Below, piece by piece: positions 1-44,720 of a stretch of DNA of 64,000 bases. Both the position numbers and the translations under genes were made by a program. Under the pieces are notes generated by a model. That model made no database searches and was not told the origin of the DNA. It worked only from the letters and a program-made list of their open reading frames with translations. Location of the stretch: assembly GCF_035083965.1 (NCBI RefSeq), contig NC_089732.1, positions 5,099,383-5,163,382 on the forward strand, in the 5' to 3' direction. Numbering within the stretch: position 1 is the stretch's first letter; every line of letters starts with the position of its first letter. This DNA comes from Branchiostoma lanceolatum (taxonomy: Eukaryota; Chordata; Leptocardii; Amphioxiformes; Branchiostomatidae).

Positions 1-2445
1 TTTTCCCGGCGTTTCCTGGAACGCCATTGGCCAGCCAGTCCTGGAAGTGGAACTGCCGAATCACTCGAAACGGGGGGCCCTGGAGGACACGGGAACGGAT
101 GTTGAGTTTTTGAAAACATTCTAGACAGATGAAGGTCGATAATGTGTGCTTCAAATGTCACCCTGAAGATATACAAATGCTTCTCGCTTGTCCTCCCTTG
201 TTTGCACAGATGGCCAAAAGGCTTTAGAAACGGAGGTGGGCGCCGATACATACACCATACGGTGTACGAAGGGCTTTTATCGTTTGCGAATGAATAATTC
301 GGACAAATACTACGCATAAACAGAAGGAAAGGGATACAACTATCTACATCAGTACAGCTAGGTATTCACTTATACTTGAGACAATGTGAAAGCAACTACG
401 TGAATAAAAGACACAACGTAGCCTTTATGCTTCATTTCAATGCAAGACCTTGAGTTGATGGAAAAAAAAGTGATCTCGAACCAGTTTAGCTCAAATGAAC
501 TCAATGAAGAGATGAGCTGATCTTCCACTGGTCGTGACAGAGAAGACAGACGCTATGTACAGCATTTACAGGTTCATTGTACCGGGGAAATTCCCCTAGC
601 TCTTTTCGACAAGCACAATGAACAGTAGACCACGGCTTAACGTCCCGTCCTAAGGACTGCGACCCTTTCCGGCAGCGTGCATGTCGGGTGAGCGACAAAG
701 CCGGGACCGAACCCCGGGCTTCTAGTTCCAGAGGCAAGATCGCTAACCACTGGATTACGCACGCTAACCACTGGACTACGCTTTGGACTCACCGTCTTCT
801 CGGTGTGCCCCACGTGAAAGGTGCGCAGGATGAAGGAGGGACACTTCTCCGTCTCCTTAAGCTCCACACTGATCTTCCCGTACTCAGCCCGCCCGTCAGG
901 CCAGTACTTATGACAGCTTTCCTGTTACGGGGGAGAAATAAGGAAATCTTTATTGACACAACAAAGGTATAGCGACTTCCGTAAGGTCTACTACAGCTAT
1001 ACATACAAACAGGCAAGTCTTATTGTTATTGGGTAGGACAACTACTCTCTCTTCGCAGCCAGGGACTGAATTGCGAGGAGCGCACATGTACAACTGGCGG
1101 GGCTAGATCGCAAGCTATGGGAGAGAGTGAGTGAGTGAGTGAGATCGAAAGGGTCTGAGCGGCTGCAATTCGGCGCTATCTCAGATGACCTCAATACGAC
1201 AATTACCCCATGTGCGGCCATAGGACTGTGATACAAAGGGATACAAATGAATTAACCTATACATAAATGTATATGAATAGATATGAGTAAATCAACATCT
1301 TGAGTCTAACGTATCATTTACACATTTGGTTCTAAGGTCTAGACAGTCTTTGATATATTGACCTGTTTGCACACAGTGAGGGTTATCTCCCCCTAGAATG
1401 TAGTTGAATCTATCTATTGAATGGGATAGGCATATTGCATTTTGATTACAACGTCTTATTTCACCGAACCAAAATTTGAACTTGAGCCGACGTTTCAATA
1501 GCCTGTCTGTTGTCTTCCTCGTTGGCGTAATCAAAGTATAATATGCATAATACAAATGTTTCAAGATATTAAATTGTGCTAAGCACATATCTGCTAATGG
1601 AACAGTTTGGTAATAAAAGCAATAGTGCTTTAGATAGCCATAAAAAAACAACTGGCATATGTACCTGTCCATTCTCCGTCAGTCTCGTCAGCATGACAAT
1701 AGAGTAGGACTTCCATTCCCACACCATCCGCCAGAAGTCGTCCACAGTGGTCCGCAGCGGGCCCTGGGTCGCAAGGAATCCGTCCCTCTGACGATAGCCC
1801 TGGTTGTGGAGTCATGATCAGAAAAAGGGATATCAATCAGCAAGGAAATTCAAGAGATTGATGGGCGGTCAGTGCAATTGTTGATCGACCCTTGTCAGTC
1901 AAACTGGCTAAAATGGCAATTACATTTTTTTTGCTACTATACAATGTGGTCTTATATTGTGACGTTTGGGTGTATTTTCTCACTTTTGTGTAATAATTAC
2001 ATTGACGTCGGACAAGTAGTTTTGAGTACCCCATCATACATGTATGGTGATTCATGTGTACACACATACAGCAGGGTCTTACATATACACGCTACTCACG
2101 TCTATGAAGGAGGCGTTGATGTAATCAGAGTCTTTAACCCCGGTGATTTGGGGCAGGAAGACACGGGTGGTGTCGTCTGTGCAGGAGATGTACATACTGT
2201 CAGCCATGTACGAGATATGACGAATACATTCTGCACTTAAGCTCCAACAAGATATGAATGAATATAACTTTTTGACATGCATAATAACGCCACATTTACG
2301 ATTGTTGATAACAACGACAGCAGCAAAAATTGCAATAATCTTATAACTTACAGGGGACACTCGTCACGATCCTATTCTTGCTTTTGTTTGCAGGCTTGTT
2401 GGCCGCCCTCATGTTTTCCTGGTCGATTGGAATCCTCGTCAGCTT
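1..2445 (-). CDS. Gene A exons for phosphatase domain D2 (partial)
   Basis: Five exons (2352-2445, 2100-2176, 1665-1799, 793-921, 1-79) encode the front two thirds of a second PTP domain. Visible family motifs are [41 protein letters not shown] and [13 protein letters not shown]. The loop that should read WPD reads [10 protein letters not shown], so the general-acid aspartate is displaced. This is usual for the pseudo-catalytic D2 of tandem RPTPs, which steadies or regulates D1. The exon carrying the D2 HCxxG signature lies left of position 1, so its state cannot be judged. The 77-base exon matches the D1 exon at 4868-4944 in length and phase, as expected from domain duplication. Confidence 0.88.
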
Positions 2446-42600: not shown

Positions 42601-44720
42601 GAAAATGCAATACAATTAAAGGCGTTTACAGTAATGCTGAAGCTCACCTCTTACTATCTGACCTCCATACATGTGTGTCCAGAACAGCAGACACTGACCG
42701 TCAGGATACGCGCGGTAGGACGGAGATGTCAGACGGGCGACGTCTCCATCTTGTCGTGGTAACGTTGTTTCAATGTACATGTAGTACCCTGGAGTGGATA
42801 AACATGATCAGAATTTGGACAGGCCATTCATTTGATTCTAAAATGTTGAACACTGCTATTATGCTCTGGGGGATATCTGAACGTATACAATAGATGGGGT
42901 AGTTAGGTACGAACATAAAATGACAGCAGCAAAGTTTTTCATATATCCATATTGTTGTTTATCTAGACTAACATATTAGTAAGTACTGATGCTACAGATC
43001 ACACTAATCTACCTTCATGATTCTTCGAATATTCATTGATTATCTAACCAAAATCACCTCACAGTTCATGCAGTTGCAACCAAAATTTATTTTGAATTAC
43101 GGCTAAGTTTGAAATACGCGCTACTTTCTGCTGCCTTGTCTCTCGAATCCGGCTTCTTCTAGAATTTGAAATTACCACGCATCTATTTCATTCCTCAGAT
43201 TTCGAAATGGGCGCTTAATCTCGATGTAGTGACGTAGAACAGCTAACATTTCGGTATATAAATGCGATGAAGCCAACAAGCTGATCAGTTCTCCTCATTA
43301 GATGATTGTGGTGTACCCGTACAAACCTGAGCTGTTGCCAGAGGTGTGGTCGACTGTTGGACCGGTTCTGCCCGTAGGAGTACCACCAGAGTCACGTGTC
43401 CAGTCAAAGTCGTCTGCCGTGTCCTGTGTGTACTGACACAGGTCTGTCTCAAAATCACAGGGACCGTATGGAGCTGTGGGAAACAAAGTGAAGCACAGGG
43501 GACTGCATATGACTGACTTACTGGAAAAAGAAAACACCATAAGATACACAGGAGCACACTGCATGATGCAAAGTTGATGTATAAATGATATTGCATTGTT
43601 AAAGATATTGATGATTTCTCTAACGGTCGGCAATTGTTTATGGAAGAGAGCTCTTTTGAGGATACAATTATATTGTTTTCATATATCATCACATAAATAC
43701 ACAAACACAGTTTACATACGGTGCGGCCGTTTGTCCTCAGTATACGTAGTGGCTTCGTTTGAAACATATAGTAAGGTTAAAAGAAGAGCATGGACAAGCC
43801 GTAATAATAACGAAGGAGTTAAAAAGGCTTTAGAAGTTTTGTATACTGTATATCGCATTACATAGAACTCCTTAAGCACATTTTATAGAACTCTTACTCC
43901 TAGCACATTACATAGAGCACCATACAAGCACCCTGACTGGAGAGAGAAAGTACCGTTTCGTCTGTGGTAGTAGTCAAATCGCGACGGCGGGCTACTTTCA
44001 ACTAACTCGGCTCCAGGTGTGTCCTTTGTTGATGTGCTAAGGATACAACGTCCGTGTGAGTTGTCATATTCAAACGACAGACACGATCCAGACGGAACAG
44101 CAGAAGTTCCCACTAAACACCGTCTGGCGCACTCCTCCTCGTTAATGTCTGCGATCAGTTCATCGTTGTGGCCGCTTATACCTTTTGCATCGTAAAAGTC
44201 AAACCAGGACAGCGACGTGTTTGCTTCTGGAGAACAGATTTTGAACAAATACTATATAGTTTTCCAGTACAAATCAATGAAATTACAACATCAACAACAC
44301 AAAGTATGTTAGCACTTGATGAGATTGCTTCTCCCACCCTGCCTCTATAAATGTTGTCAGACTTGCTAATGAAATTACAACAAAGAAAAACAAATATGAT
44401 GACAAGATGGTGATCACCTATGATAAAGTAACGTTGATGAAAGGGCTACGTTGTTTGTATTTCGGGAATGCACATAATTAACTTCGCGTTTGTGTATTCC
44501 CACAATTTGGCAAATATATCCCGCAAAAATATCACATTTTAAGGTATCCGGTAACGTTACCTGGTTATATACAGTATAAGAGTTGCTTCCATCTTTTGTC
44601 ATATGTACTTCTACTGGGATCCAGGTACACAATATACACACCAATTATATGTTGCATGGACTTACCAGCAAAACTGCCAAACAGACAAACCAAGAGCCAA
44701 ACAACCACGTCCATAGCCAT
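36335..44720 (-). CDS. Gene B: type I receptor with PAN, MAM, EGF, sushi and FN3 domains and ITAM-like tail
   Basis: Exons: 44666-44720, 43954-44226, 43327-43473, 42648-42788, 42058-42273, 41795-41923, 41492-41617, 41015-41185, 40368-40661, 39953-40167, 39763-39829, 39495-39598, 38888-39110, 38668-38773, 38244-38384, 37833-38031, 37526-37568, 37328-37363, 36941-37025, 36335-36623. The sum is 3060 bases, 1019 codons plus stop, frame kept throughout. Architecture: signal, PAN, MAM, EGF, EGF, sushi, FN3 x3, RPTP membrane-proximal unit, stalk, membrane span, tyrosine-rich tail. MAM plus FN3 is the outside of RPTP type IIB (PTPRM/K/T/U), which fits loss of a phosphatase from an RPTP-like ancestor (inference). 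Confidence 0.87.
36941..37025 (-). CDS. Gene B transmembrane exon
   Basis: [13 protein letters not shown] then [16 protein letters not shown]. Exits in phase 2 at GTCAGT. Clear orthology of structure with 23580-23661. Confidence 0.88.
37328..38773 (-). CDS. Gene B membrane-proximal RPTP-type unit and stalk microexon
   Basis: Exons 38668-38773, 38244-38384, 37833-38031 and 37526-37568 plus the 36-base Ser/Thr-rich microexon 37328-37363 ([12 protein letters not shown]). Motifs: [61 protein letters not shown]. The donor at 38243 is GTTAGT, the same variant as gene C at 24986. The microexon acceptor (AAGAG) was picked for frame and is uncertain. Confidence 0.82.
38888..40661 (-). CDS. Gene B FN3 domains 1-3
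   Basis: FN3-1 is one exon (40368-40661). FN3-2 is 39953-40167 plus 39763-39829, and FN3-3 is 39495-39598 plus 38888-39110. Same splits and near-identical exon lengths as genes A and C (104, 223, 67 bases). Motifs: [56 protein letters not shown]. Confidence 0.9.
41015..41923 (-). CDS. Gene B EGF, EGF and sushi exons
   Basis: EGF 41795-41923 ([14 protein letters not shown]), EGF 41492-41617 ([13 protein letters not shown]) and sushi/CCP 41015-41185 ([36 protein letters not shown]). All phase 1. EGF-sushi order matches gene C; gene B has one EGF more. Confidence 0.88.
42058..43473 (-). CDS. Gene B MAM domain exons
   Basis: Three exons (43327-43473, 42648-42788, 42058-42273) form one MAM domain of about 168 residues: [35 protein letters not shown], then [20 protein letters not shown], and [17 protein letters not shown] at the end. 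MAM domains mediate homophilic adhesion in RPTP-mu-type receptors. Only gene B of the cluster has it. Confidence 0.9.
43954..44226 (-). CDS. Gene B PAN/apple-domain exon
   Basis: 91 residues, phase 1-1, with [32 protein letters not shown] and FDYYHRRNG. Very close to both gene C PAN exons. Confidence 0.87.
44666..44720 (-). CDS. Gene B start exon: signal peptide
   Basis: ATG at 44718-44720 opens [18 protein letters not shown], phase-1 exit at GTAAGT. A second in-frame ATG two codons later could also serve. Confidence 0.85.

Follow-up and report, generated by a model that had tools for sequence, protein, structure and literature searches.

A tandem amphioxus gene cluster of a predicted receptor tyrosine phosphatase and two phosphatase-less relatives with ITAM-like tyrosine tails

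Receptors with tyrosine motifs in their tails are already known from invertebrates. The allorecognition receptors of Hydractinia are Ig-based, and the receptor protein tyrosine phosphatases (RPTPs) of the R4 type, RPTP-alpha and RPTP-epsilon, have short ectodomains. Draper and Megf10 are described as carrying an immunoreceptor tyrosine-based activation motif (ITAM) that is read by a Syk-family kinase, and the tail of Draper as a substrate of Src42a that is recognised by Shark, a tandem-SH2 kinase (PMC8092387). Homologues of Syk/Zap70 are reported from invertebrates that have CARD-CC/Bcl10 (PMC5978004). In Botryllus the FcoR receptors are presented as Ig-based, with a sushi domain and with tails that contain immunoreceptor tyrosine-based inhibition motifs (ITIMs), hemITAMs or YxxL motifs, and the Hydractinia receptors as containing both ITAMs and ITIMs (PMC12065747). 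An amphioxus leucine-rich repeat receptor, assayed in human cells, is reported to inhibit via ITIM-like tyrosines (PMC8211107), and the paired receptors CD300A and CD300C to have undergone gene conversion in the ectodomain (PMC12447643). Here, we analyse a stretch of 64,000 nucleotides from Branchiostoma lanceolatum (contig NC_089732.1, positions 5,099,383 to 5,163,382), called the window below, which contains a cluster of three receptor loci, A, B and C. Judged from its sequence, gene A is a two-domain RPTP. The best reading of B and C is that they descend from the same receptor scaffold as A, have no phosphatase exons and carry a short tail with several tyrosines at their end.

Judging by its gene structures, the window is intron-rich DNA of animal type. 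The gene models were predicted from open frames, GT-AG splice sites and exon phases matched across the copies. The predicted exons, 39 in A, 15 in B and 19 in C, all splice in frame, and the three loci lie in tandem on the minus strand, as the initial annotation of this DNA had proposed. Gene C starts with an ATG at 44720 and ends with a stop codon at 36337-36335, giving 1007 residues in 19 exons. The product of locus B has 801 residues, encoded by the signal exon (33044-32996) and 14 further exons down to the stop codon at 22973-22971. Counted from where the stop region starts, an ATTAAA signal follows after 276 nt in B and after 56 nt in C. Pfam identifies PAN, EGF, sushi and FN3 domains in B and C, and MAM in C. 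A contains 12 EGF exons, compared with one or two EGF, together with sushi, in B and C. No relatives were found in bacterial and viral sequence collections, as expected for an animal gene.

In gene A the signal exon is located at 18614-18560, and the second and third FN3 domains are each split over two exons. Pfam finds two Y_phosphatase stretches (E 5.9e-135), so that the two protein tyrosine phosphatase (PTP) domains named in the initial annotation are present, with the correction that the second (D2) is only partly inside the window. The catalytic motifs noticed earlier in the first domain (D1) are confirmed, a WPD loop and an intact catalytic Cys-loop signature. The WPD aspartate is missing from D2, because D2 reads WLA where WPD is expected, and the D2 Cys loop falls beyond the window edge. 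Among the best 60 of 260 PDB sequences, the D1-D2 region matches RPTP-alpha best, with 660 bits, followed by RPTP-epsilon (628), LAR-type phosphatases (559-575) and CD45 (430).

The three receptors have in common a membrane-proximal unit of four exons, m1 to m4. Exons m1 and m2 measure 100 and 147 bp in A and 106 and 141 bp in both B and C, a sum of 247 bp in each; m3 has 190, 199 and 199 bp in A, B and C, and m4 has 43 bp in all three. The phases are equal and the exons of A align with those of B and C, and the earlier claim of a shared unit with matching exon lengths is borne out. The Pfam family PTP_tm passes its cut-off in B and C, see Table 1.

No PTP domain is found by Pfam in B or C. 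When the PTP region of A was used as query in tblastn and phmmer searches of the whole window in six frames, nothing PTP-like was obtained at E < 1 outside the exons of A (1-5670). B and C are therefore without PTP exons or recognisable remnants in the window, and the idea of PTP remnants beside either gene was rejected. The transmembrane exons of A, B and C all end in phase 2, the phase in which the juxtamembrane exon of A and the tail exons of B and C start. Because these phases agree, a single exon change could switch a receptor between the phosphatase type and the tailed type. Homology between the juxtamembrane exon of A and the tails is not supported, as 151 (B) and 913 (C) of 2000 shuffles score equally high.

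The tail motif YQTL-x11-YQKL, proposed in the initial annotation, was located in both genes, as YQTLDPRALEILNIEYQKL in B and as a 19-residue counterpart in C. The two tails are identical at 61 of 94 aligned residues, and the ratio of nonsynonymous to synonymous divergence (dN/dS) between them is 0.51 (interval 0.24-0.89), i.e. they are under purifying selection. For comparison, the ratio is 0.37 from FN3-3 to m4 and 0.44 in the N-terminal part. Two forms of the ITAM consensus are in use, a loose one, Yxx[LI]-x6-12-Yxx[LI], and a strict one with a spacing of x6-8. Both tails fit the loose form, but their spacing of 11 lies outside the strict one, and the distal motif of B, IEYQKL, also fits the ITIM consensus [SIVL]xYxx[ILV], while that of C does not. 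The ITAM assignment made earlier thus holds in its loose sense. When each tail was shuffled 20,000 times, the loose pattern turned up in 0.7% of the cases for B and in 1.0% for C, and the pattern with YxxL only in 0.2% and 0.7%, respectively; here the motif was picked after being noticed, and B and C together count as one independent observation. A YxxP motif is also present in each tail (YEMP, YDMP). The tail of C (36338-36623, minus strand) reaches 21.1 bits with the Pfam family Alpha-amylase_C, for which the cut-off is 21.2; we take this as a chance match in an acidic tail.

Gene A and the phosphatase-less B and C have recently exchanged sequence by gene conversion, and the best evidence for this is a tract of 124 nt at FN3-3, in which A differs from B and C at one base, and B and C are identical. 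Over the 110 nt preceding it, 72 positions match between A and B and 69 between A and C, i.e. 63-65%. Only part of a single FN3 domain falls within the tract, and the boundary of the tract lies six bases into the intron, just past the donor site. Scanning third codon positions, the best window of 45 codons has 42 identical positions in both A-B and A-C, a value that 0 of 2000 permutations reach; the corresponding value for B and C, 44 of 45, is reached in 63 of 2000. The synonymous divergence (dS) of A from B and C is at least 0.89 or saturated in the nine other exons compared, and in exon FN3b it is 0.33 (A-B) and 0.44 (A-C). Exon m3 of B (24584-24782) and C (37833-38031), both on the minus strand, is near-identical, with a dS of 0.085, and may possibly be a second tract of conversion, confined to B and C.

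Locus B contains a tandem duplication of about 3 kb, 26304-29288 against 29647-32657, with blastn pieces of 75-85% identity, and each copy holds a five-domain cassette in which all six exons are open. The two cassettes, B and Y, are separated by a dS of 0.31 with a dN/dS of 0.26 (0.17-0.35), which makes it unlikely that they are alleles. The signal exon can be joined to either PAN exon through an open junction (codon GAA), and the last exon of cassette Y continues openly into FN3-3, giving 800 residues. That same exon ends in T and the PAN exon of cassette B starts with AA, so that joining them creates a TAA stop. An arrangement in which one B gene strings the two cassettes together was therefore rejected, and the cassettes look mutually exclusive. 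A separate signal exon for cassette B at 29740-28770 was also rejected, as only weak candidates are present. The simplest reading is that locus B probably encodes two alternative ectodomains with one shared tail.

Two other observations concern the same cassettes. Introns of both (28389-28474 and 31636-31712, minus strand) contain remnants of the first MAM exon with 78-79% identity to 43380-43460 of gene C, and MAM seems to have been lost from the B cassettes and retained in C. Further, a repeat on the minus strand is located shortly upstream of both cassette PAN exons (28992-29113, 32395-32520) and again upstream of the signal exon (34084-34206). It was rejected as a first exon by eye: the frame common to the copies, FGMSSASMRARQ..., bears no resemblance to a signal peptide, is short and runs into a stop in the copy upstream of cassette B.

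Compared with the described systems, A resembles RPTP-alpha and RPTP-epsilon in its tandem PTP domains, its intact D1 signature and its top PDB match to RPTP-alpha (best 60 of 260), and differs from them by its PAN-like, EGF and FN3 modules; moreover, its neighbours B and C have no PTP domain. With the MAM/FN3 phosphatases of the PTPRM/K/U type the cluster has in common the combination of MAM and FN3 in C and the RKRR site in the membrane-proximal units of B and C. The unit of C alone fits Fn3_PTPRU with 27.4 bits (cut-off 24.7), while full-length C stays below it at 21.8. In contrast to that type, no Ig family reaches the Pfam cut-off, PAN, EGF and sushi domains are additional, and B and C are without a PTP domain. 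The best matches of the FN3 region of C are LAR-type RPTPs (best 60 of 63).

Like Draper, MEGF10 and CED-1, these are transmembrane receptors with EGF-type modules, but B and C have neither an EMI match nor an NPxY motif: EMI is absent from the Pfam matches of A, B and C, and NPxY from the tails of B and C. The Botryllus FcoR and Hydractinia receptors are, as B and C would be, invertebrate receptor families with tyrosine-motif tails; however, the available part of PMC12065747 describes neither as RPTP-derived, and FcoR is Ig-based. CD300A and CD300C, as presented in PMC12447643, are similar to this cluster in that the genes are clustered, have differing tails and show ectodomain gene conversion. 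They differ from it in that each has one similar IgV ectodomain, whereas the amphioxus cluster has differing ectodomains and includes a phosphatase as one of the partners. Among the titles and abstract beginnings listed from the open-licence literature, we found no phosphatase-less RPTP relatives with ITAM-like tails and no tyrosine receptors on an RPTP frame beside a phosphatase gene.

We consider it fairly probable that B and C have an RPTP scaffold and act as non-catalytic tyrosine-phosphorylated receptors, that A is a two-domain RPTP and that locus B has alternative cassettes. In such a system, ligand contact or clustering would cause the tyrosines in the B and C tails to be phosphorylated by Src-type kinases. 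Once phosphorylated, YQTL and YQKL could together dock a Syk/Shark-type tandem-SH2 kinase, or each by itself an SH2 phosphatase. YxxP is a docking motif for Crk-type adaptors, and YEMP and YDMP may serve in this way. In the same membrane, A would remove phosphate from the tails or from Src kinases, acting either as an eraser or as a Src activator. At locus B the single signal exon would feed one of the two five-domain N-terminal cassettes, resulting in two ectodomain versions with one tail. The sign of B/C signalling is not readable from sequence.

If this is true, a receptor phosphatase family can yield non-catalytic, kinase-read receptors by a change in the exons that follow the transmembrane segment, a point relevant to the origin of immunoreceptor tails. 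A single tandem cluster with a phosphatase receptor and tyrosine-tailed receptors on a common frame is a directly testable case, and cassettes used one at a time, kept apart by a stop codon where they would meet, would offer an uncomplicated way of diversifying the ectodomain that can readily be checked.

Several observations weigh against this reading. The last 34 tail codons alone give a dN/dS of 0.44 (0.13-1.70) and the B-C PAN exon 0.85 (0.48-1.47); since both intervals reach above 1, constraint is not demonstrated for every part. The tyrosine pair that the initial annotation had singled out as conserved does not stand out, as four of six tyrosines are conserved between B and C, no better than the tail average of 61/94, and the 19-residue motif is identical at 15 of 19 positions against 46 of 75 in the rest of the tail (Fisher P = 0.19). 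PTP_tm reaches 15.5 bits in the membrane-proximal region of A, under the cut-off of 26.3, and Pfam lists no PAN family in A, so the kinship of A with B and C rests on alignment. Of the modules said earlier to be shared, EGF and FN3 are confirmed, and PAN is recognised in A by similarity to the PAN exons of B and C (44% over 71 residues, E 1.7e-9; 37-38% over the exon). Finally, a splice from the transmembrane exons of B and C to the PTP exons of A is frame-compatible (phase 2), so B or C could join them.

The initial annotation had interpreted the cluster as paired receptors that may see related ligands and send opposite signals, an interpretation that is supported in part. On a phosphatase scaffold this would mean that B and C activate via a Syk-like kinase, that A opposes them and that the ligands are the same or related, which we regard as distinctly unlikely. 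The tandem genes, the common scaffold and the constrained, loosely ITAM-like tails are consistent with it, as are Syk/Zap70 homologues in invertebrates having CARD-CC/Bcl10 (PMC5978004). So is sequence exchange between the partners, found here in the 124-nt tract; in CD300A/CD300C such conversion is described as accompanying shared ligands (PMC12447643). However, the ectodomains of A and C are not closely similar. The exons compared are 0.37-0.74 identical, where 0.74 is the converted exon, and the others range from 37% (PAN, 32/86) to 68%. Related ligands for A and B/C are not supported, as the modules differ as well; the tract is part of one FN3 domain only, the strict ITAM spacing is not found and the distal motif of B is compatible with an ITIM too. 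The complete form of the idea, an inhibitory partner with a phosphatase in its own chain and activating, phosphatase-less RPTP relatives with ITAM tails, matched by gene conversion and one of them with two either-or cassettes enforced by the junction stop, is very doubtful.

A might also act in the same direction as B and C. RPTP-alpha and CD45 activate Src kinases, and because the D1-D2 region of A is closest to RPTP-alpha (660 bits, best 60 of 260), a member of this Src-activating class, A could assist an ITAM instead of opposing it, by activating the Src kinases for which the tails of B and C are substrates. We think this unlikely, as a top PDB match informs on the descent of the catalytic domain and not on the substrate, and the ectodomain of A is of a different make. 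Somewhat easier to accept, though still rather improbable, is that B and C play no immune role but serve in adhesion or development, with ordinary endocytic or adaptor tails. YQTL and YQKL would then be YxxPhi sorting signals, which both fit, and YEMP/YDMP an SH2 site; YxxP occurs in both tails, the tyrosine conservation is average, and most RPTPs are adhesion-type receptors. Yet the spaced pair arises in at most 1% of shuffles and has the same spacing in B and C. For cassette Y, it is possible, though not what we favour, that it is a copy in decay or gives rise to a short secreted product of its own, and is not an alternative ectodomain. When its last exon is read through, a stop follows three codons beyond. 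Against this, all six exons are intact, the dN/dS between the cassettes is as low as 0.26 (0.17-0.35) at a dS of 0.31, there is no other convincing signal exon in locus B, and no AATAAA or ATTAAA was found between 29794 and 28800.

Table 1. Predicted genes and features of the receptor cluster, in positions of the window.
Feature	Positions	Strand	Basis
Gene A (3' end cut at window edge): signal peptide, PAN-like exon, 12 EGF exons, 3 FN3, RPTP membrane-proximal unit, transmembrane, juxtamembrane, PTP D1, partial D2	1..18614	-	39 in-frame exons, GT-AG at every junction within window, 1652 aa stop-free; Pfam; PAN by similarity only
PTP D2 exons of A, 5 exons, truncated by window, WLA for WPD	1..2445	-	exon models
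PTP D1 exons of A, 9 exons, WPD and catalytic Cys-loop signature	2624..5615	-	exon models, Pfam, PDB matches
Juxtamembrane exon of A, phase 2 start like B/C tail exons, contains NIYANV	5927..6069	-	exon models
A membrane-proximal four-exon unit (100+147, 190, 43 bp)	6782..8016	-	exon models
Gene-conversion tract, A copy: 118 nt of FN3-3 exon end and 6 intron bases	8198..8321	-	123/124 identical to B and C
Locus B: signal-peptide exon, two alternative N-terminal cassettes (probable), common FN3-3, membrane-proximal unit, transmembrane, tyrosine tail	22971..33044	-	exon models
B tail exon and stop codon	22971..23277	-	exon models; purifying selection vs C
B YQTL-x11-YQKL	22998..23054	-	located in tail exon
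B transmembrane exon	23580..23661	-	exon models
B membrane-proximal four-exon unit (106+141, 199, 43 bp), RKRR furin-like site	24157..25489	-	Pfam PTP_tm 29.7 bits, cut-off 26.3
Gene-conversion tract, B copy	25599..25722	-	alignment
Cassette B: PAN-EGF-CCP-FN3-FN3, 6 exons	26444..28763	-	exon models
Cassette Y: PAN-EGF-CCP-FN3-FN3, intact, 6 exons	29795..32138	-	all 6 exons open; dN/dS to cassette B 0.26 (0.17-0.35)
Signal-peptide exon of locus B (MAGNVFLLFCFFVGFA, phase 1 donor)	32996..33044	-	only convincing candidate; weak ones at 29740-28770
Gene C: signal peptide, PAN, MAM, EGF, EGF, CCP, 3 FN3, membrane-proximal unit, transmembrane, tyrosine tail	36335..44720	-	19 exons, 1007 aa, ATG to stop; Pfam
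C tail exon and stop codon	36335..36623	-	exon models
C YQTL-x11-YQKL	36365..36421	-	located in tail exon
C membrane-proximal four-exon unit (106+141, 199, 43 bp), RKRR site	37526..38773	-	Pfam PTP_tm 27.6 bits, cut-off 26.3
Gene-conversion tract, C copy	38882..39005	-	alignment

Between the 3' end of B and the first exon of A, a retrotransposon of the long interspersed nuclear element type is located on the plus strand (19628-21946), with an open frame of 772 residues containing RVT_1 and zf-RVT. Upstream of gene C there is an array of 33 TACTC copies (46249-46413). A sodium:dicarboxylate symporter frame (SDF, E 4.4e-23) at 62502-62837 on the plus strand is unrelated to the receptor cluster.

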